Part shown: positions 652 to 23,510 of the stretch, one piece after another
Layout: each line of letters starts with the position of its first letter
How positions within the stretch are numbered: the first letter of the stretch is position 1
From: a virus
DNA: 24,392 nt
Virus record (IMG/VR): IMGVR_UViG_3300005264_000107
Span: 1 to 24,392 of that record
Strand: one strand, 5' to 3'
The notes under the pieces: model-generated
What the model was told of the DNA's origin: nothing
The model's database searches: none
Seen by the model: the letters and a program-made list of their open reading frames with translations, nothing else
Made by a program: the position numbers and the translations under genes

Positions 652-1062
652 TTAATGGATGCTCCCGGCCCACATTCGCGGCAGCCGGGGTTTGATTTTT
701 TCCAACGCCGGTCCCATGAAGGGCCGGGGTTTGTATCGTGCGACCCTGCTACGACGCCTCGCGCGTCGCCGTCCGCCGAACTCATGCAGCGCACCGGAGA
801 GGCCCACGCCGCCGAAGGCCGGGCCGATCACGACCCGGTCGGCATGCTTCTCGACGGAGTAGAGAATCGATCCGCGAAGCGCGCCGGTATGCGTATGCGG
901 CGGGGTTCCAGGGGCAGACGGGCCCTTGCGACGACGGATGCTCCGTCTGGCCGTCAGGCGAAGCGCGGCCCCGGCATGGCCGAGGGTCACGATGTTCGCC
1001 CGGCGGACCTTGCGGAGCACCTTCTGGACGTCGGATCGCGTTTTGACCTTCATGCCGATCAT
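652..1062 (-). CDS. HK97 gp10-like head-tail / tail completion protein
   Basis: A 136-residue, very basic protein. Features typical of the HK97-gp10 family are visible: an N-terminal helix (SDVQKVLRKVRRANIV), a central Pro/His segment followed by HTGALRGSI, the motif GALHEFGG, and near the C-terminus RPFMGPALEKIKP. Members of the family sit at the head-tail interface or complete the tail. The ATG at 1062 overlaps the stop of the upstream secreted-protein gene in an ATGA arrangement, so translation is probably coupled. AAAGGA lies about nine bases upstream. The gene resumes the ordinary tail programme after three non-structural-looking genes. Twelve bases separate its stop codon from the tail tube start, and that spacer holds the tail tube's ribosome binding site. 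Confidence 0.75.
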   Translation of the reverse strand: MIGMKVKTRSDVQKVLRKVRRANIVTLGHAGAALRLTARRSIRRRKGPSAPGTPPHTHTGALRGSILYSVEKHADRVVIGPAFGGVGLSGALHEFGGRRRARRRSRVARYKPRPFMGPALEKIKPRLPRMWAGSIH

Positions 1063-2120
1063 TTATCTGTTTCCTTTGTGGCAAAACAGGTCGCCGCGAT
1101 CTTTGTCTTGAACGTCGCGTCCTTGAGGTTCGCGCAGTGGAACGTGATCCCCGCCCAGCCCTGCTTCTGGATGAGGGCCGCGAAGATTTTTCCCTTGGCC
1201 GCCCAAACCGCAGCCGTCCGTTGCGTCTCGCCGCCGCGCGTGCCGAGGAAGTCCAGCAGGACCACCGGTTTCCTGGCGTCGATCCCGACGGCCTGGCAGA
1301 TCGTCGCCCGGGTCTGGGTGGCGAAGAGCGTAAAATTGTGTGCGTTGGTTATCGCGTACCCGTCGAATTTTTTGAGCCGTTCCTCGATCCGTTGCCCGAG
1401 CCGTTGAATCCACCCCGCCCGGTAATTTGCGTAATCGACGGCCAGGACCAGCGGCGTTTCGCTGATACGGCCCAGCAATCCACGCAACGCATCCACGCGG
1501 TCCGCGACGGCCTGGTATTCATCGGGTTTCTGATTTTCGCCCGCACCGACTCCGAGAACCGCGTACAGGACGTTTTTGCAGGCCAGCGCCCGGGCCATGT
1601 CCGGACCGACGCCCTTGTCGCAGACCAGAACGAACGTCCGCGCCGTGGATGCCACGACAAAATCCGCGAGGGTCTTATTGGCCTCGGGCGACTCGTCGCA
1701 GAACCGAAGGACCATCGGGACCGCGGCGTCGAGCTTTTTCAGGTCGTCGAGCTTGTAGTCCGGCGTCTGGCCCCATTTGAACAGCCCGACCGCCGGAGCA
1801 AACGCGGGGAACGCTCTGGCCTTTTGGGGTTCATCCGAGATCGTCACGCCGTTGGATTTCAAGAGGTCCTCCGCGGCCTTGGCCTGCCCGGAGTCCAGGT
1901 ACATCCCGATCCGTCCCTCGTCGGTGGTGGCTTCCTTTTTCGGCTCGGCGACAGGCGAGGGAGTTTTTACGGCCTCTGTGTTGAGCGTCCGGTCCACCGG
2001 CAAGGTGATCGTCTTCTTGCCGAGCTTTTCGGTCAACCACTCGGGACGATCATCGGCCCAGACGATCCCCGCCAGGGATGCCAGAGTCAGCCAAACAAAA
2101 TATCCGGTCATTCTTTTCAT
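1059..2120 (-). CDS. Secreted protein of unknown function (third of signal-peptide cassette)
   Basis: A 353-residue protein with a clear N-terminal signal peptide: a basic start (MKRM), a hydrophobic core and a likely cleavage after IVWA, about residue 22. The mature part begins with a charged segment and a Pro/Lys-rich linker. A mixed alpha/beta domain of roughly 230 residues follows, with regularly spaced hydrophobic strands such as VPMVLRF, FVLVCD, PLVLAVDY and KPVVLLDFLG near the C-terminus. That alternation suggests a barrel-like or Rossmann-like fold, perhaps hydrolase-related, but I see no diagnostic catalytic motif. It follows the TPR-like secreted gene by four bases, with GGAG in the upstream gene's end serving as the ribosome binding site. 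It overlaps the gp10-like gene downstream. The family is not recognised. An export signal is unusual for a gene inside a tail operon. Confidence 0.7.
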   Translation of the reverse strand: MKRMTGYFVWLTLASLAGIVWADDRPEWLTEKLGKKTITLPVDRTLNTEAVKTPSPVAEPKKEATTDEGRIGMYLDSGQAKAAEDLLKSNGVTISDEPQKARAFPAFAPAVGLFKWGQTPDYKLDDLKKLDAAVPMVLRFCDESPEANKTLADFVVASTARTFVLVCDKGVGPDMARALACKNVLYAVLGVGAGENQKPDEYQAVADRVDALRGLLGRISETPLVLAVDYANYRAGWIQRLGQRIEERLKKFDGYAITNAHNFTLFATQTRATICQAVGIDARKPVVLLDFLGTRGGETQRTAAVWAAKGKIFAALIQKQGWAGITFHCANLKDATFKTKIAATCFATKETDK

Positions 2121-2124
2121 GATT

Positions 2125-3453
2125 CTATTCTCCGGGGTTCAAAATGTCGGCGATGGGGTTTGTGGCGATTTCGTTGTTGACCCATTTGACGAATTCCACA
2201 TCTCGGCCGTTGTACTGCTGGTCGATGCACCGGACCGCGGCCGCTGTGGTCAAGACCCACCGTTGGAACAGGAACCGGTCCTTTTCGTTTTGGGCATAGG
2301 ACCAGGCCAGCCGCGCCGCCTGCGGGTACATTCCCCTCAGAAGAAGACTCATGCATTTGGCCTCGCGGGTGTCGTATGGGTCGATCAGGGCGGCCAGGGC
2401 TCGCGCCTCGGCGGTCGTCTCGAACGGTCGAAATGTCCCGCCGTCGGTCAGCTGGTCGATCATCGTTTTGCTGTCGTTGGTGGCGATGCTTCCGGGTTGT
2501 CGGGCGTTCCAGGAGACCCTGCCCCTGACGACGGTTTGCATCGAACTGGTGGACAGGTAGATCGTATCGTTGGCGGGGATCCCCACCAGCTGCAGCAGGA
2601 CGCCCGGGTCACGGCTGGAGATGCACGCCCGGTGTGAGAAAATCTTGGCGACCATGGCGGTCAGATTAGTATCTGGCTTGAGGGCCTTCAATTGCACCAG
2701 ATTATCGTGCAGCCATCCAATATCGGACTTCGCGTAGTTGATTGAATCCGCCAGTGTTTTGGCCTGGCCGTCCCGGTCCTTGGCGCGGCCCTGCAGTCGG
2801 GCTAGTTTCATGCTTCGCACCAGACCTTTCGTGTGGTCGGACCGATGATCCCGGTAGGCCTTTGGATGTTTTGTGACGTCCAGCGAATCCTTCAGCGCCG
2901 CGATGGCCTCGGGGCGTTTTCTCTCGCCCAGGAGAATGGACGCCTTGCGTTCCAACAGGTCGGCCTTGTTCCAGTCGCCGGTCAGATCCTTGATGCGTTT
3001 ATCTTCCGATGCGGCGTTGGCGGGGTTGTTGACGACGGTTTCGGCGGCCGCAAGGTGCGTGCGGGCCTTTTTCCAGTCCTTCGCTTCGATTGCAGCTCGA
3101 AGCGCAAAGCCGCTGTAGCGGAACTTCGTCGGTTGCATGATCTCCGCACCGTGGACTTCAATACATTTTTCGTAGGCGGTGAGCGCCTCGGCCGGCTTTT
3201 TGGATTTGGAGCGGAGCTGCGCCACCTTCGCCCAGGCCTGGACGCGAGTTGTTTTCTTTGTGCTCGGATATTTTTCGATCCACGCGGTGACCTCGGCTTC
3301 CGTCCCGGCCTTCTTCAGCTCGTCCCTTTGCGGATCGAGTTTTTTGGGTTTCGCGGGTTTTTTGGGGTTGGCCGCAACGACCGTCGAACCGACCAGTAGA
3401 ATGATCGCCGTCATTGTCAAAAATCCCATGAGTTTTTTTCGCATGTTTGTCAT
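2125..3453 (-). CDS. Secreted TPR-like helical repeat protein (second of signal-peptide cassette)
   Basis: A 442-residue protein with a signal peptide. It has a basic start (MTNMRKKLMG), a hydrophobic stretch through about residue 26 and a likely cleavage at VVAA-NP. The mature N-terminus is Lys/Pro-rich. The body is mostly helical with repeated patterns like those of tetratricopeptide repeats, for example AWAKVAQLRSKSKKPAEALT, DWKKARTHLAAAETVV and LLERKASILLGERKRPEAIA. Such repeats normally mediate protein-protein contacts outside the cytoplasm. The C-terminal 200 residues are not assigned. GAGGAAGG stands seven bases before the ATG and lies in the last codons of the upstream gene, which supports the start and implies coupling. 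The function is unknown. Envelope-associated proteins of this general kind are common in planctomycete chromosomes, so host acquisition is possible. Confidence 0.7.
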   Translation of the reverse strand: MTNMRKKLMGFLTMTAIILLVGSTVVAANPKKPAKPKKLDPQRDELKKAGTEAEVTAWIEKYPSTKKTTRVQAWAKVAQLRSKSKKPAEALTAYEKCIEVHGAEIMQPTKFRYSGFALRAAIEAKDWKKARTHLAAAETVVNNPANAASEDKRIKDLTGDWNKADLLERKASILLGERKRPEAIAALKDSLDVTKHPKAYRDHRSDHTKGLVRSMKLARLQGRAKDRDGQAKTLADSINYAKSDIGWLHDNLVQLKALKPDTNLTAMVAKIFSHRACISSRDPGVLLQLVGIPANDTIYLSTSSMQTVVRGRVSWNARQPGSIATNDSKTMIDQLTDGGTFRPFETTAEARALAALIDPYDTREAKCMSLLLRGMYPQAARLAWSYAQNEKDRFLFQRWVLTTAAAVRCIDQQYNGRDVEFVKWVNNEIATNPIADILNPGE

Positions 3454-3458
3454 TGGTT

Positions 3459-4208
3459 TTACCTTCCTCGATTCACGTAGACCCAGACGATTTGCTTGTC
3501 AGCCACGCGGCCATCCGTCTGGCCGGGCGTGTTGCCGTCCGCGTCGATGTATTTGTCCGCAGCGACGTCCGAGCCGATCAGGTCGTTCGTCACGCCGTTG
3601 TCCCATTGCTCCGTCCCGTCCAGCGCATCCATCAGGTTCACGTTCCCTGCCGTGTCCACCACGCGGATCAGGAGCAGGAAAGATTTTCCGGGGGTCAACT
3701 CGATGGTCCGACCCTGCAGCAGGTCTCCCTGCCAGGTGGAGGTTTCCGGCTCGCCTTCGGGGATCGGGTTGTCGATCTCGTATCCCACGACGTTCCCCTC
3801 GTCAGCGCTGGGCTTCAGTTCCACGACCTTCGTCCATTGCGTCGCGTCGTCGCCCTCGTCGGCGCGGCCATTGCCGTTGGAGTCCGCCCACTTCCAAATC
3901 TGGATGTGCGTGACCAGGCCGTTGGCGAAGGCCTGCCCGGCGTGGTGCGATCCGCCGACGTGGGCATACCCGCGAAGGGTGGACAACCCCGTGACGGTCT
4001 TGGAGAGCCAATAGGTTCCGTCGCCGGACTGCACGTCGTTCAGGAGAATCGGCGTCGTCTTGGAAAAACTCTCGGCCGACCCGTGAAGCTGAACGGCTTC
4101 CGTGGCGTCGTATTCGATGGCCGCAAACGGCAGCGAGACGTTCAGATGCCCGAACGCGACGGCTGTCATCAGCAGCAAGATTAGGAAACTACCAGAGAAT
4201 GATTTCAT
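3459..4208 (-). CDS. Secreted protein with two Ca-binding-like loops (first of signal-peptide cassette)
   Basis: A 249-residue protein. The start at 4208 gives a textbook signal peptide, MKSFSGSFLILLLMTAVAFG; a GGAG element about eleven bases upstream is weak. The mature part is beta-rich and acidic. Two loops resemble dockerin or EF-hand-like calcium loops: DSNGNGRADEGD at residues 109-120 and DADGNTPGQTDGR at residues 222-234. In known families such loops bind Ca2+ through the Asp/Asn side chains; here that is inference. Residues 165-200 look like an immunoglobulin-like strand pattern (TIELTPGKSFLLLIRVVD). The gene overlaps the end of the preceding structural gene by 20 bases and is followed after five bases by the next secreted gene, so it is the entry point of a three-gene exported cassette. 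No specific family is recognised. Confidence 0.7.
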   Translation of the reverse strand: MKSFSGSFLILLLMTAVAFGHLNVSLPFAAIEYDATEAVQLHGSAESFSKTTPILLNDVQSGDGTYWLSKTVTGLSTLRGYAHVGGSHHAGQAFANGLVTHIQIWKWADSNGNGRADEGDDATQWTKVVELKPSADEGNVVGYEIDNPIPEGEPETSTWQGDLLQGRTIELTPGKSFLLLIRVVDTAGNVNLMDALDGTEQWDNGVTNDLIGSDVAADKYIDADGNTPGQTDGRVADKQIVWVYVNRGR

Positions 4209-4677
4209 CGTGATACACGCTCCATTCGTCATGGCCGCGAGCCTTCTGCCGGCTGCGGCGGATGTATTTTTTACCTGGGATCAGCAATGCCAATGGCTCC
4301 GACGCCAGCGGGACCAGCAGCTCGCCCGACCGACGATTCGAATCGACTTCCGAGAGTTTAGTGGCGATCCCGCCGTCGGTCAGCGGGGTGATCTCGCCGG
4401 GCACGCCGCAATAGTCGATCCTGGCATACAGGCCCGCGTAGTCCACGGACGTATCACCCTCCAGCAGCGGTGACGCGAAGGTCGGATCGTCCAAGGCCGC
4501 GATGGCGAACTGAACATCCCAAGTGACATCCTCGATTCCCTCGACGTGCCAGATCGGGAAGGCCAGCAGTTCAAAATCTTCCTGGGCGGAGGACTCGATG
4601 CTGCGCACCAAAACCGCGCCGGTGGGATCGTGCACCTGCAGGTCCGTTGCCTGAAGCCATTTTCGTTTGTATCCCAT
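4189..4677 (-). CDS. Hypothetical phage structural-module protein
   Basis: A 162-residue protein read from the ATG at 4677 (MGYKRKWLQATDLQVHD), with GGAA six bases upstream. A TTG four codons earlier is possible but would use up that site. The sequence is mixed, with a long central region containing DVTWDVQFAIAALDDPTF and a C-terminus rich in aromatic residues (DEWSVYHDEIILW). No signal peptide, membrane segment or known motif is visible. It lies immediately downstream of the tail-terminator-like gene, and its 3' end overlaps the first secreted gene by 20 bases. Position suggests a minor tail or connector role. Equally, it could belong functionally with the secreted cassette. I do not recognise the family. 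Confidence 0.65.
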   Translation of the reverse strand: MGYKRKWLQATDLQVHDPTGAVLVRSIESSAQEDFELLAFPIWHVEGIEDVTWDVQFAIAALDDPTFASPLLEGDTSVDYAGLYARIDYCGVPGEITPLTDGGIATKLSEVDSNRRSGELLVPLASEPLALLIPGKKYIRRSRQKARGHDEWSVYHDEIILW

Positions 4678-4693
4678 ATTTCGTTCCAATCGA

Positions 4694-5131
4694 TTACCGG
4701 AATGCCCGGTACGTCAAAGTCAACACGCTCGTAAACTGCCGGAACTGCTCCAGATGCTCCTGGGAATAGACCGGCACGTTTTGGTCCCGGACCCAAAGGG
4801 CGTGCGGAAAATCCGTCAACTGCCGCTGGCGAAGGTGGTCGGCGATCTGCTCGACCAATGCCATCAACTCGTCGATCTCCCCGGCCATCGCCGTATCCGT
4901 CTTGGAGAGTTTTTGCTGAATCGCAATGTCGACCTGCACGTCCGTCCGGTGCGTCGTCCGCGTCCCGGCCTCGCTCTCGATACCGTGCGGTACGACGGTC
5001 ACGTGCAGAGTTTTCATATCGGGAAGCTCGAACTTCGGGGCGTAGAGCCGTTCGGCCTCGAAGTCCCTGGAGAACGACCCGGCGTTCAGTTCCGTCTTGA
5101 CCGCTTCGGCGATATCAATTGTGGCTGGCAT
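4694..5131 (-). CDS. Tail terminator / minor tail-like protein
   Basis: A 145-residue protein starting MPATIDIAEAVKTELNAG. The ATG at 5131 has GAGGAG about five bases upstream. The N-terminal helix (DIAEAVKTELN), a strand-turn-strand centre (TLHVTVVPHG, then a DVQVDIAIQQKL segment), a helical stretch (EIDELMALVEQIADHL) and a final strand (FTSVLTLTYRAFR) resemble the alpha/beta build of siphovirus tail terminator and completion proteins of the lambda gpU type. Those proteins cap the tail tube at the head-proximal end. The call comes from secondary-structure pattern, length and neighbours. A head-tail connector role is the main alternative. Sixteen bases separate it from the next gene. Confidence 0.55.
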   Translation of the reverse strand: MPATIDIAEAVKTELNAGSFSRDFEAERLYAPKFELPDMKTLHVTVVPHGIESEAGTRTTHRTDVQVDIAIQQKLSKTDTAMAGEIDELMALVEQIADHLRQRQLTDFPHALWVRDQNVPVYSQEHLEQFRQFTSVLTLTYRAFR

Positions 5132-5143
5132 TTTTTCTCCTCG

Positions 5144-5425
5144 TTACTCTTCGATCTCTACGTCCATCTTGGTCGCCAGGCGAACGACGTTCTTGTCCAC
5201 CTTTTGCAGAGTGGTCGCGATTTCCTTCATCCAGGTCTCGCGGCCATGACAGCGGGTGTGGATGTTGCCGATCTCGGTTTTCAGCAAGGCAATCTCGCCT
5301 TCCAAATGGATCAGCCGTCCGCGAAGGTTGAACATCCCGGAGATGACCCACCAGGCCGACCCGGTCAAAGCGCCGCCGCCCAAAAGCAGCGACGCAATCG
5401 CCAAAATTAATCTGTCCGTGCCCAT
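5144..5425 (-). CDS. Small membrane protein with coiled coil in the structural operon
   Basis: A 93-residue protein read from the ATG at 5425, which overlaps the stop of the head-closure gene (TAATG), so coupling is likely. Residues 4-30 form one hydrophobic membrane segment containing LILAIASLLLGGGAL and AWWVISGMF. The rest is a charged helical region with heptad-like spacing (LIHLEGEIALLKTEIGNI, then TTLQKVDKNVVRLATKM), likely a coiled coil. Small membrane proteins of this build sit in many phage structural operons. Some are holin-like or spanin-like, but a single transmembrane segment followed by a long cytoplasmic or periplasmic coiled coil is not diagnostic. I found no endolysin nearby, so a lysis role is only a possibility. 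Confidence 0.65.
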   Translation of the reverse strand: MGTDRLILAIASLLLGGGALTGSAWWVISGMFNLRGRLIHLEGEIALLKTEIGNIHTRCHGRETWMKEIATTLQKVDKNVVRLATKMDVEIEE

Positions 5426-5784
5426 TAGATTGTCTCCACGTGTTTCGTGTGAATCCGCATCGTCATTCGGTGCGGATCGTTGAACCGCCAATGGCCAGCA
5501 CCCGCCAGGGCCATGACCTCGTACACCATGCCATCCGTCGTGATCCGGTCGCCGCGTTTCGGTTGCTCGAACGTCGCGGCCAGGTCCTCGCCAAGGATCA
5601 AAAAGTCAATCACCGACGCGCCGACCCGAAATCCGTTCTCATCTTCGACCTCGTATTCCGTTTTCCCGAAGGTCGCCTGAAGCTCCGCTTCCGTCTCGCC
5701 GCGACTGTAGGTGACCGGGCTGGAAGCATGCTCTTTGAGCATCGCCCCTAGCCAGCGACTTCCTTGTCGTAGAAGGTCACCCAT
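5425..5784 (-). CDS. Head closure / head-tail connector-like protein
   Basis: A 119-residue protein read from the ATG at 5784 (MGDLLRQGSRWLGAML). AAGGATCGGGCGC precedes the start and gives a good ribosome binding site. The longer open frame upstream is Arg-rich and overlaps the DUF2190 gene in another frame, so it is rejected. After an N-terminal helix, the protein looks like a small beta-barrel with strands such as VIDFLILGEDLAATF, RGDRITTDGMVYEVMAL and HRMTMRIHTKHVE. This fits the general design of lambda gpFII/HK97 gp7-type head-closure proteins, which bridge the portal ring and the tail. Position after the capsid and decoration genes agrees. The exact class is inferred. Confidence 0.6.
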   Translation of the reverse strand: MGDLLRQGSRWLGAMLKEHASSPVTYSRGETEAELQATFGKTEYEVEDENGFRVGASVIDFLILGEDLAATFEQPKRGDRITTDGMVYEVMALAGAGHWRFNDPHRMTMRIHTKHVETI

Positions 5785-18832: not shown

Positions 18833-21481
18833 CTAACAGGTTCCATGCAAAATCCTCCTGATTCGGTTGACATGCTGCCTAGTCGCGCCGACCTCGTTTC
18901 CGATTTCCTGCGCATCGGCGTCCGGATTATTTGCCAAAAGCGCGGCGATCCAGAGCGATTTTTCGCCGCTTACGCCAGGCCGGTTTTTGACGTAAAATGA
19001 CCTGGATCCGATACTGACTTTTGATGCGAATCCGTGATCCTGCGCCAGGTCGAGCATGTTCCGCGCGTGTCGTTCGGACAGTCCAAATTGTTTTTTTGCT
19101 TCCTGCAGGACCGTCGTTCGCAAGCAGGGATCGTGGGGCGACAGGCAGACCTCGATGAAATCTTCCATGGGGACTTCGATGGATACGAATTGCGATTCGT
19201 CGTCGCTCGCCATGGCCGCGAGGTTTTGCGCGAGGATCGCGCCGGTTTCGGCATCGATCACTTCCAGAGCCGCCGAGGCGACCGCGTTGCCGTAGTCGTC
19301 CACCAGGCCGGGGAGCTTTACCGTGTTGAGGTCCATGACGACATGTGGGGGGAGGTCCGCTTCCTTCATTTTCGTGGCCGTCAGCAGCATCCGATCGGTC
19401 TTGGACATGCGGTATTCCGCGTCGAGCGCGGCCTTCAGCGCAATGGCGCCCCGGGCGCGGTTCTTGTCGGAATGGCCGCTGTGATGGACGACCAGGACCG
19501 TGCATCCGAATCGCTTGCGAAGGTCGTCGCAGGCCGCTACGAACAGACCCATGTCCTGGGTGGAGTTCTCGTCGCCGCCCCCGAAACACCGCGCGAGGGT
19601 GTCCAGAACGATCAGGGCCGGCGGGCCAGCCTGCTCCTCGATGGCCACGACCAATTCGTTGAGCGATTCGGAATCTGTGATCCCCACCGCAGGCGCGACG
19701 AAGAGGGGCGCCCCGTCTAACTTTACGTCATTAAAAACCTCCCACGCCCGGATACGCCGCCCGAACCCCTGCTGGCCCTCTCCCGCGATGTAGACCACCG
19801 GGCCGCCCGGAACCGCATGGCCGCGCCAAGGCGTCCCCGTGGCGATCCTGCACGCCCAGTCGATGGACAGGAACGACTTGCCGCTGCCAGGGTCGCCGAA
19901 GACCATCGCCAACGTGTCACGCTCCAGCATACCGCGAAGCAGCCAGTCGGGCGGGCGGATTTCGATCTGGTCGGCGCGCGTAAGTTTGAATTTTCGCGAT
20001 TTTTGCGATGAGTTCTCGGCGGGGATCGTGCCATTGTGGGAATTGTGTGACGAGGAGGCGTGACTCTCGGTCGACATTTCCACAATCGCCGAGATGTCCA
20101 CGCTGTCGTCCACATGTTCGGATTCTCCGAAGCCCATTTCCGACAGGGCGCGTGTTGCGGCCGAGAAGTCGCCACTGTGCTCCAGGTGTGCGTAGACGGC
20201 GAAGGGACTGTAGGATTCGTTCGGTTCAAACGGCGTGGCATTGGAACTGAAAACATAGAGCGTGCTGTCCTCGATCCGCACCGTCGCGGACTGGCCGCTT
20301 TCCTTACCTGGCCTGCGCCAGAATTCGTTCACTTCGTCGCGTCGCAGGTAGGTCCAGCCGTGGGATTCCAAAAACGACCCCACGTCGCCGTGGGAATTGA
20401 AATCATCGCCGGGCCGATGCGAGACATTTTTTTCGCGATTTTCATGCGTATTTTCATGCGACCCGGTTTTCTCATGTGCGTGGGCTTTTTTATGCGTTTT
20501 TTCATTCGCATGCATTTTTTCCGCGCCCAAAACCGATGTCGATTTGACATTTCCATGCGACGCATTATTTTCGCGACTTTCATGTGTTTTTTCATGCGAC
20601 CCGGTTTTCTTATGCCCGTGGGCCGAAAAATGAGGCGAATTGTCCGAAGCATTGTGGAGTTTGTCGGAGCATACTGACCGAGAACTCGTATTTGTGGAGT
20701 TCTCGGTAGCACACTGGCGAATGTCGGAGTTCTCGGTAGCACACTGCGAGTTATCCGAAGCATCGTGGAGTTTGTCGGAACATACTGGCCGAGAACTCGT
20801 ATTTGTGGAGTTCTCGGTAGCACACTGGGAGTTGTGCGAGTTGTCGGCAGCACATTGGGAGTTGTGCGAGTTGTCGCCCGATTTTTGGCCCACAGTGGCG
20901 TTGTGGGGCGAGATTCGCCTGCCCTTGGCATCCTTGGCCGACTTGGGTTCCCCGAGCGCCCAGGCGGCCTGCATGAGCATGTCGCGTTCGGATTCGGTGA
21001 TCGTCGGCGGGTCGGCCAGATCGCCTTGGATCAGTTCGTATCCTTCCGTCGGGGCGCAGAGGAATAGACCGCCCTCACCACGAGTTTCGATCAAAGTTTT
21101 GAGTTTCCCGTCAATTCGCCGGGAGGCCAGTTTTAGGTTTCCGCTGACCGGCGTTTCGCATCGGTAGACGACGTGCTTGCCGCCGGATTGCGAGGTTTCG
21201 ACGACCAGATGGGCCAGAAGTTCGTCGGGGATTCGTTTCGACCATTCGTCATACAACATACCGCCGTGGTCGAAGTCGATCATCTCCAGGTTTCCAGAGA
21301 CTTCTCCGCAGACCAGGCAAAGCGCGTCGTGCCCGTTGGCGAACCAGGCATCCGTTTCGGCGGACGTTGGAAGCGCAGACTGATATTGCTTCCACCGCCG
21401 GACGGCCGGGCGCTTTTCGGCTCGGCGGGCTGGCAGAACGCACAACCCGGCCTCTCGATATTGTTCCGCTGTCCCCCTCAT
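18833..21481 (-). CDS. PrimPol primase - RecA-like helicase fusion with repetitive linker
   Basis: An 882-residue replication protein; its ATG overlaps the upstream stop as ATGA. Residues 1-160 form a bifunctional primase-polymerase domain, with metal-binding MIDFDHGG (D69, D71), GGKHVVYR (H103) and the glycine-rich segment IETRGEGGLFLCAPT. Residues about 200-355 are a low-complexity Asn/Ser/His/Cys-rich linker with tandem repeats. Residues 366-450 are a primase-associated domain (EFWRRPGK, YSPFAVYAHLEHSGDFSAA). Residues 508-730 are a RepA/DnaB-like ATPase with Walker A GDPGSGKS (529-536), Walker B LIVLDTLAR (623-631) and VVHHSGH. The C-terminus carries an HTH (DAQEIGNEVGATRQHVNRI). Such fusions prime and unwind phage or plasmid DNA. 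The candidate origin lies immediately downstream. Confidence 0.88.
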   Translation of the reverse strand: MRGTAEQYREAGLCVLPARRAEKRPAVRRWKQYQSALPTSAETDAWFANGHDALCLVCGEVSGNLEMIDFDHGGMLYDEWSKRIPDELLAHLVVETSQSGGKHVVYRCETPVSGNLKLASRRIDGKLKTLIETRGEGGLFLCAPTEGYELIQGDLADPPTITESERDMLMQAAWALGEPKSAKDAKGRRISPHNATVGQKSGDNSHNSQCAADNSHNSQCATENSTNTSSRPVCSDKLHDASDNSQCATENSDIRQCATENSTNTSSRSVCSDKLHNASDNSPHFSAHGHKKTGSHEKTHESRENNASHGNVKSTSVLGAEKMHANEKTHKKAHAHEKTGSHENTHENREKNVSHRPGDDFNSHGDVGSFLESHGWTYLRRDEVNEFWRRPGKESGQSATVRIEDSTLYVFSSNATPFEPNESYSPFAVYAHLEHSGDFSAATRALSEMGFGESEHVDDSVDISAIVEMSTESHASSSHNSHNGTIPAENSSQKSRKFKLTRADQIEIRPPDWLLRGMLERDTLAMVFGDPGSGKSFLSIDWACRIATGTPWRGHAVPGGPVVYIAGEGQQGFGRRIRAWEVFNDVKLDGAPLFVAPAVGITDSESLNELVVAIEEQAGPPALIVLDTLARCFGGGDENSTQDMGLFVAACDDLRKRFGCTVLVVHHSGHSDKNRARGAIALKAALDAEYRMSKTDRMLLTATKMKEADLPPHVVMDLNTVKLPGLVDDYGNAVASAALEVIDAETGAILAQNLAAMASDDESQFVSIEVPMEDFIEVCLSPHDPCLRTTVLQEAKKQFGLSERHARNMLDLAQDHGFASKVSIGSRSFYVKNRPGVSGEKSLWIAALLANNPDADAQEIGNEVGATRQHVNRIRRILHGTC
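20417..20884 (-). repeat. In-frame repeats encoding the primase linker
   Basis: A 111-base tandem duplication (within 20636-20827) encodes two near-identical copies of a segment with QCATENSTNTSS and CSDKLH. A second pair encodes HKKTGSHEKTHESRE and HEKTGSHENTHENRE. Each 111-base copy carries the perfect inverted repeat CCGAGAACTC-N9-GAGTTCTCGG (20678-20706 and 20789-20817). Confidence 0.8.
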
Positions 21482-21737: not shown

Positions 21738-23510
21738 TCAAAATGGAATGTTGTCTCCCGCCCAGGAGTAGTCGGGTTCCCTCTCGGCCAGGTCGCCTTC
21801 CGTTGTGGATGGGGGTTTGGTGGGCAGTTCGCAGGCGACGATCTGATCAAACCTTTCACCCGCAACAGTCCGGACGGTGATCGCGGACGGTTCGGCCAAA
21901 GCGCCCGCATCGGCCAGATCGACGGCCTCTTTCGCGGTCGCGGGGAGCGGTTCGTCGGTCCGGGCCCGCCACCACGCCTCAAACTTATTGCGGGCGAATC
22001 CGGTGTGCTCCGGACAAACCCATTCGTTTTTCCAGTCGCCAAGGGAGATCTCGTACTCGACGCGCATCGTTTGGGGATGGCCTTCCGACGCGCCGCGCTT
22101 GGTGTGGATGTAATAACAGACGCCGATCACGTCGTACTCGGTGTCCGTCACCTGGCCGGTCAGGATCCCCTCGTTGCTGGCCTTCGCGTCGTGGTCCTGT
22201 CGTTCCGGCGGCGGGAATTCATATCCGCACTCCGGACAAGTTGTGTATCCGGCATGGATCAACGCCTGGCACTTGGGACATTCCCGGGCGGGCGCTTCAC
22301 CGTCGCCACGGCCCGGTTCGTCGGTAACTTGTAGATCATCCACCGGACCGTGACGCAGGATGTTCCCGCCGTAATCGAGGACGAGGCAGTCTTCCTTCTC
22401 CGGATGCAAACGGAATCCCCGTCCCACCATCTGATAGAAAAGCCCCGGCGAGTTCGTCGGGCGAAGCAGAACCACACAGTCGATATTCGGCGCATCGAAT
22501 CCGGTCGTCAGCACATTGACGTTCACCAGGTATTTGATCTGCCCCGTGCGGAAGCGGAATAATGAACTTTCACGCTGCAGGCCGGGCGTCTTGCCGCAGA
22601 CGAATTCGCAATCGACACCAGGGTCATATCGTTCGAGGGTCCGCGTGATCCGCTCGCCGTGCTTGACGCTCGACGCAAACACCAACACACTGGATCGTTC
22701 GGCGGTTAGTTCGACGATTTCCTTGCAGGCCTCGTGGACGAGCGTGCCATCACCCATCGCCTCGTCGACCTCCGAGGCGATAAACTCGCCCGCGCGGAGA
22801 TGTAAGTTAGAGAGGTTCGCTTTGGCCTTCCCGGCCTTGGATTTGAGCGGACAGAGATATCCCTGAACGATCAGTTCCTTGACGCCCGCCTCATAGCAGA
22901 TGTGGTTGAGGAAATGATCCGCCTTGGCGATCAGGCCGCCCTTGAGTCGATACGGCGTTGCGGTCAAACCGATAACGCGAACATTAGGGTTCACGACCTT
23001 CGCGTCGGTCAGGAATTGCCGGTAACGACCGAGGCCTTCCATCGTTATCATGTGACACTCGTCTGCTAACACCAGATCAAAACGGTCCAGTTCCCCGGCG
23101 CGTTTATAGACCGACTGAATCCCCGCGACGATGACCGAATGGCCGGTGTCGCGGGAGTTCAGCCCAGCGGAATAAACGCCGATGTCCAGATCGGGCGCCA
23201 TACGACGCAACGTCTCGGCCGTCTGGGTCAGCAGCTCCTTGACGTGGGCGGCCATACGACGCAACGTCTCGGCCGTCTGGGTCAGCAGCTCCTTGACGTG
23301 GGCGAGGATCAGGACTCGGCCGCCCCATTTTTCAACGGCGTCTCGGCAGATCGTCGCCATCAGGGGCGTCTTGCCGGATGCGGTCGGCAGGACGATCAGG
23401 GGATTATCCTCGCGCGTTCGCAGGTGCTCATACACCGCGTCGAGCGCCTCGACCTGATAAGGGCGCAAGACCATCGCGGGCACTTTCGGTTTGGGGAGTA
23501 GTGATTGCAT
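21738..23510 (-). CDS. SF2 DEAH/DECH-box helicase with C-terminal zinc ribbon
   Basis: A 590-residue helicase. Walker A PTASGKT is at residues 42-48, DECH (motif II) at 150-153, motif III GLTATP at 181-186 and motif VI QMVGRGFR at 360-367. After the two RecA-like domains a CxxC...CxxC zinc ribbon follows (C411, C414, C425, C428), then about 150 residues with a Trp-rich segment. This architecture is common in phage replication and recombination modules and is related to type III restriction-like helicases. Residues 70-87 and 88-105 are identical copies of an 18-residue segment spanning motif Ia, from a 54-base duplication. That could disturb the fold. The ATG follows the upstream stop by one base. 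Confidence 0.9.
   Translation of the reverse strand: MQSLLPKPKVPAMVLRPYQVEALDAVYEHLRTREDNPLIVLPTASGKTPLMATICRDAVEKWGGRVLILAHVKELLTQTAETLRRMAAHVKELLTQTAETLRRMAPDLDIGVYSAGLNSRDTGHSVIVAGIQSVYKRAGELDRFDLVLADECHMITMEGLGRYRQFLTDAKVVNPNVRVIGLTATPYRLKGGLIAKADHFLNHICYEAGVKELIVQGYLCPLKSKAGKAKANLSNLHLRAGEFIASEVDEAMGDGTLVHEACKEIVELTAERSSVLVFASSVKHGERITRTLERYDPGVDCEFVCGKTPGLQRESSLFRFRTGQIKYLVNVNVLTTGFDAPNIDCVVLLRPTNSPGLFYQMVGRGFRLHPEKEDCLVLDYGGNILRHGPVDDLQVTDEPGRGDGEAPARECPKCQALIHAGYTTCPECGYEFPPPERQDHDAKASNEGILTGQVTDTEYDVIGVCYYIHTKRGASEGHPQTMRVEYEISLGDWKNEWVCPEHTGFARNKFEAWWRARTDEPLPATAKEAVDLADAGALAEPSAITVRTVAGERFDQIVACELPTKPPSTTEGDLAEREPDYSWAGDNIPF
23197..23304 (-). repeat. Perfect 54-bp tandem duplication in the helicase gene
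   Basis: The two 54-base units (23197-23250 and 23251-23304) are identical, with no mismatch. They keep the reading frame and repeat 18 residues (AHVKELLTQTAETLRRMA). Perfect identity points to a very recent event or an assembly artefact. Confidence 0.95.

Follow-up and report, generated by a model that had tools for sequence, protein, structure and literature searches.

In phage T5, the llp gene adjoins oad, the gene for the receptor-binding protein. The exported lipoprotein of T5 disables the receptor of T5's own receptor-binding protein (PMC9586334). The locus analyzed here resembles that arrangement in that phage proteins would be exported to the outer surface and in that their three genes (SP1, SP2, and SP3) lie next to g4189, a gene for a proposed virion appendage, as llp lies next to oad. 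It differs in that Llp is one small, early-expressed lipoprotein, whereas SP1 to SP3 are three large proteins encoded in a tail operon, with no sequence relation to Llp. Like phage morons (lysogenic conversion genes), the trio looks like nonessential cargo and is carried by some relatives only, but it shows no sign of its own transcription unit, and it has overlapping gene ends and a fixed partner gene. As the initial annotation had supposed, the composition of the cassette matched no described system in Pfam, PHROGs, NCBIfam, the INPHARED phages, or the papers searched, the last of these in a search that reached few subscription journals. No relative of SP1 to SP3, g4189, or the tail tube was found by tblastn among the 50,697 phage genomes of INPHARED.

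The window, meaning the whole 24,392-base virus record, carries a caudovirus structural operon on the minus strand, to which all window coordinates below refer. The gene order is terminase, lambda-type portal, protease-capsid fusion, cement protein, head-tail joining protein, small membrane protein, g4694, g4189, SP1, SP2, SP3, gp10/neck, and tail tube. The small protein between the head-tail joining gene and g4694 (5144 to 5431) has one transmembrane segment and lies outside the trio. A conserved tail gene, g4694 (4694 to 5131), is syntenic in nearly all relatives and marks the upstream side of a slot; g4189 (4189 to 4689) follows and encodes a protein without a signal peptide. The trio consists of SP1 (3459 to 4208; 249 amino acids [aa]), SP2 (2125 to 3444; 439 aa; ATG at 3444, with an alternative ATG at 3453), and SP3 (1059 to 2120; 353 aa). 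Directly downstream of SP3 is an open reading frame (ORF) for a gp10/neck-type tail completion protein (652 to 1062; phrog_5, E = 8.7e-10), and the tail tube gene (200 to 673; Phage_tail_2, E = 6.2e-9) forms the downstream border. The gene before the trio had been described as connector-like, but g4189 carries no connector signature; the slot is flanked by regular tail genes, with g4694 at one end and the gp10/neck and tail tube genes at the other.

SP1 starts (ATG at 4208) within the end of g4189, SP2 begins 14 bases after SP1 (5 bases from the alternative ATG), SP3 begins 4 bases after SP2, and the stop of SP3 and the start of the gp10/neck gene overlap as ATGA. The g4189/SP1 and SP3/gp10 overlaps leave no space for separate promoters at those two junctions. 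The earlier claim that the ends of the trio overlap or abut structural genes was thus borne out, and the late production that had been claimed with it agrees with the position in a late operon, from which we infer the timing of expression. Elsewhere in the window, the helicase ORF (21738 to 23510) contains AHVKELLTQTAETLRRMA read twice in tandem, possibly a recent duplication or an assembly artifact, and in the primase/RepA-like protein (18833 to 21481), the middle is of low complexity and contains repeated units of the SHNSQCATEN and HEKTH types.

The N termini of SP1 (MKSFSGSFLILLLMTAVAFG), SP2 (MRKKLMGFLTMTAIILLVGSTVVAA), and SP3 (MKRMTGYFVWLTLASLAGIVWA) each begin with a predicted Sec-type signal peptide, as called with our own simple rule set, not SignalP. 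Three consecutive tail operon genes with export signals had been proposed from the initial reading; ORFs were found at that place, and all three were called positive, against a background of 12 positive calls among 670 core structural genes from all loci. Calls were positive for SP1 homologues (12/12), SP2 homologues (8/8), and some SP3 homologues (3/8, including SP3 of the window), the last count being partly a consequence of the choice of start codon. SP1 and SP2 of every lineage have a short basic n-region, a hydrophobic core, and an A-x-A/G-type site. Exclusion lipoproteins of the Llp/Cor type are comparable in the predicted signal peptide but differ in that SP1 of the window lacks the lipobox cysteine (AFGH at the site, versus A[LW]AC in relatives and LVAC in L050).

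A scan with SP1 recovered a relative with 58% identity (L002), and the resulting alignment recovered L046 to L053. Homologues of SP1 were found in L002, L046 to L053, L136, and L141, with more distant ones in L065, L070, and L146. About 10 other virus contigs keep the order SP1-SP2-SP3, at identities as low as 27%, and the trio and its order persist across identities from 58%, 27%, and 29% (SP1, SP2, and SP3, respectively) up to ~90%. A synteny search in related phages, which had been suggested with the initial annotation, revealed that all intact copies are ordered g4694-g4189-SP1-SP2-SP3, followed by gp10 or tube. SP2 and SP3 are 22 to 29% identical to their distant relatives, with alignments that span the C-terminal parts and with signals retained. 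Among close copies, dN was well below dS for SP1, SP2, SP3, and g4189 (dN/dS of roughly 0.2 to 0.55 for the trio); by this measure, the trio is under purifying selection. Because signal-bearing homologues occur elsewhere in matching order and dN is well below dS, the trio genes are real, each with its predicted export signal.

In L050, SP1 sits after a truncated capsid gene. This arrangement was not taken for a genuine alternative order; the complete order is present in L141, which comes from the same metagenome, so L050 was interpreted as a deletion or an assembly chimera. The SP3 homologue of L002 (8867 to 10795) has a long tandem Pro-rich repeat linker (VVGPQPVTLSAPP type) from the signal peptide to the barrel. 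Between the terminase and portal region of L048 (551 to 1597) is an ORF for a protein that starts with a signal peptide, contains beta-propeller repeats, and carries a PEP-CTERM sorting motif at its C terminus.

The g4189 domain directly precedes SP1 in all 11 SP1 loci with an intact upstream region (the window, L002, L046 to L049, L051 to L053, L136, and L141), and g4189 without SP1 was not found in the other loci. As judged from gene order, the trio recurs as a module linked to g4189. The N-terminal tag of g4189, KRWLQATDLQV, is a motif found at the N terminus of interchangeable proteins of 115 to 173 aa in the slot. One KRW-tag slot protein ends in a BclA_C-like domain, and the neighbors in other phages are a G8/beta-helix protein, a LamG lectin, or a GDSL lipase. 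These genes for appendage-like proteins occupy the genomic slot of the trio and have the N-terminal tag family in common with its partner gene, but their products lack the signal peptides that SP1 to SP3 have. Of 59 tube- or portal-derived loci with the slot fully covered, 10 encoded a KRW-tag protein. The C-terminal domain of g4189 is restricted to loci with the SP1-type trio. In L136 and L141, the remainder of g4189 (~40 to 49% identical) stands behind a different tag, MPYxCxC, which is also found at the start of the L114-type counterpart; SP1 and SP2 follow in both, and SP3 follows in L141, while L136 ends inside SP2. Since SP1 and SP2 are still adjacent after this tag swap, the trio goes with the C-terminal domain of g4189, not with the tag. 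The slot looks like a virion-appendage slot, the tags would be virion-docking segments, and g4189 may be located on the virion and face outwards, a placement suggested by the exchangeable tag only.

Between cement and tail tube, the slot is hypervariable in L003 to L045 (e.g., L003, 134 to 496, and L011, 6339 to 6860). The slot proteins there have a common short N-terminal tag, [KR]RW[IL][NQG]SxD[VI], and C-terminal parts that are otherwise unrelated. An open frame of 1,855 codons occupies the same slot in L039 (1970 to 7537).

The reading that we favor, tentatively and with a probability of roughly 0.35, is that the trio forms a cassette of late, exported proteins by which the host surface that the linked appendage recognizes is altered or masked, for superinfection exclusion or release. 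SP1, SP2, and SP3 would be cotranscribed, and probably translationally coupled, with g4189, and would be expressed late in infection. While g4189 docks on the virion, all three proteins would be exported by Sec and act jointly at the host envelope, where they would change or occupy the surface structure bound by the linked appendage. Infected cells and debris would therefore stop capturing progeny, which would exclude superinfection and help with release. Known exclusion factors need far less than three large proteins, which counts against the exclusion reading.

Rather unlikely is the alternative that SP1 to SP3 are exported virion accessories that fold outside the cytoplasm, with calcium and under oxidizing conditions; at lysis they would bind particle-borne g4189 and form an outer adhesin or decoration. 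The obligate link to the g4189 domain even with a swapped tag, the invariant calcium-type loop of SP1, and the appendage-like proteins that otherwise fill the slot are all consistent with such a role, but no tailed phage is known to us to build its appendages from Sec-exported parts, and the SP3 barrel described below is not a known tail fold. Improbable is a virion appendage system with outer parts made via host export, in which SP1 to SP3 are secreted, acquire their fold with calcium outside the cytoplasm, and either cooperate with virion-docked g4189 or are loaded onto it. If true, export-made outer parts would be a two-compartment way to build or serve the adhesion apparatus of a tailed phage.

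The protein types that had been proposed for the trio fared differently. SP1 has a DxNGNGxxDxxD calcium-type loop, as proposed, that is invariant among homologues. Its AlphaFold model (pLDDT of 49) was too poor to interpret, with a best, FN3-like match at a Z score of 5.0 (rmsd of 2.4 over 81 residues); FN3-like matches were therefore left out of the interpretation, and the fold of SP1 is uncertain. The TPR assignment of SP2 fell below the cutoff, with a single TPR_2 repeat (E = 0.0028; 18.1 bits, versus a Pfam cutoff of 27); this weakly suggests that SP2 is probably a TPR-like alpha-solenoid. SP3, proposed as an alpha/beta protein, has a disordered linker (residues ~23 to 78) and a predicted (beta/alpha)8 barrel (residues ~105 to 350). 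Its AlphaFold2 model (pTM of 0.70) has eight alternating strands and helices over residues 105 to 350; the structure prediction and search suggested earlier thus gave a TIM barrel, and not a known tail fold, for SP3. No usable family was found for SP1 or SP3 in Pfam, PHROGs, or NCBIfam, where SP2 matched the subthreshold TPR only, and PDB sequence searches were empty or gave chance matches.

The best structural match of the SP3 model was the clan-A glycosidase 5d9p (VIA Z of 12.8; rmsd of 3.9; 238 residues aligned). The top structural matches were at 6 to 12% identity, with other TIM barrels within ~1 to 1.5 Z; the best were among GH5, GH53, GH18, and GH1. In BFVD, a phage GH5-type protein was matched. 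Clan-A enzymes have their nucleophile in strand beta-7. SP3 is similar to clan GH-A (GH5, GH53, and others) in predicted fold and in having an acid in this strand (D290 in the window; all six relatives have E), but a conserved glutamate or other acid was absent from beta-4 in the alignment of the window and its relatives. For SP3, the prediction is a TIM barrel that resembles clan-A glycosidases without their two catalytic acids, and the protein may bind glycan instead of cutting it. Degradation of the envelope for lysis or egress, with SP3 as an exported glycan hydrolase and SP1 and SP2 as binding and scaffold partners, would fit the glycosidase matches and the beta-7 acid; it is rather unlikely given the missing beta-4 glutamate and the nearly equal scores of TIM barrels of many functions. 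Most relatives also lack the trio and, near their tail genes, encode small lipoproteins and membrane proteins separately, so the trio is not the common lysis set.

The tail tube was common to 43 viral contigs, and a portal profile matched relatives among bacterial genome records, almost all of which carried the label Planctomycetota, mostly Phycisphaerae. Some of these relatives are metagenome-assembled genome (MAG) contigs, possibly co-binned phage rather than integrated prophage. From these labels, the hosts are mostly Phycisphaerae. One complete Planctomycetes chromosome (CP087563.1; syqfu; 7.4 Mb) has portal genes of this phage family in at least 12 separate places (L075, L081, L083 to L085, L088, L092, L095, L097, L101, L103, and L124).

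Profiles of SP1, SP2, and SP3 found nothing outside phage-like contigs in a nonexhaustive sample of 387 to 397 Phycisphaerae genomes, in a search whose first-look step scores few candidates per genome and could miss distant homologues. SP1 was found there only in the prophage-type contigs L134 (a copy of L070), L135 (a copy of L065), and L136; the last runs on into g4189 and g4694 and was the sole contig with SP2. No credible SP3 homologue was found in the Phycisphaerae genomes searched. The match of L150 to SP3 (E = 0.003), on a 3.1-kb piece, was rejected as chance because it covers 49 residues and the longest frames of the piece look noncoding. When GTDB was scanned with the initial SP1 profile, nothing matched. 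The initial annotation had raised the capture of host genes; recent capture is not supported, given the lack of homologues outside phage-like contigs in the ~390 genomes. Also unlikely is moron or lysogenic conversion cargo unrelated to virion biology, made by lysogens to change the host surface. Exported proteins, variable layouts, and related phages in bacterial genomes would agree with it, but the trio is embedded in a structural operon with gene overlaps, has a fixed link to g4189, and lacks those outside homologues.

In L065, L070, and L146, the slot precedes g4694 and encodes, in order, a protein of 115 to 120 aa (tag [TV][RK]RWIG[SA]AD), an exported protein of 353 to 362 aa, a protein of 333 to 349 aa in the SP3 position, and an SP1 homologue with a signal. 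The protein in the SP3 position has an N-terminal hydrophobic stretch without a clear cleavage site, and one of the three proteins in these phages may be membrane anchored rather than cleaved. Profile comparison among layouts (hhalign; background of 153 family pairs) was decisive only for SP1 of the L065 type and of the window type (P = 4e-12); for SP2 and SP3, P values were 0.057 and 0.15, and kinship is suggestive at most or unproven. L114, L148, and L149 encode three exported proteins (197, 420, and 272 aa in L114) with ATGA overlaps, after two small genes and in the same position as in the window; their kinship with SP1 to SP3 is unproven. A TIM candidate of the L114 type was compared to SP3 of the L065 type (P = 0.0048; rank 2 of 153) and was rejected, since this P value is insufficient for that many comparisons. 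At least two exported proteins were present in the slot in 2 of the 59 fully covered loci (L065 and L114). That the N termini anchor ordinary virion proteins in the membrane or serve them as pilot segments, as the hydrophobic start in the L065 type could suggest, is very improbable given the complete signal architecture of SP1 and SP2 in every lineage and the rarity of signal calls among core virion genes.

An exported cassette linked to an appendage, as in the favored reading, ties three exported proteins by gene order to a probable virion surface protein and points to a two-part system on both sides of the host envelope. To our knowledge, phages of Planctomycetes are nearly unstudied. The cassette provides concrete genes for testing how these phages deal with an unusual bacterial surface, and the short N-terminal tags of the exchangeable slot offer, on their own, a means of finding host recognition genes in this large phage group.
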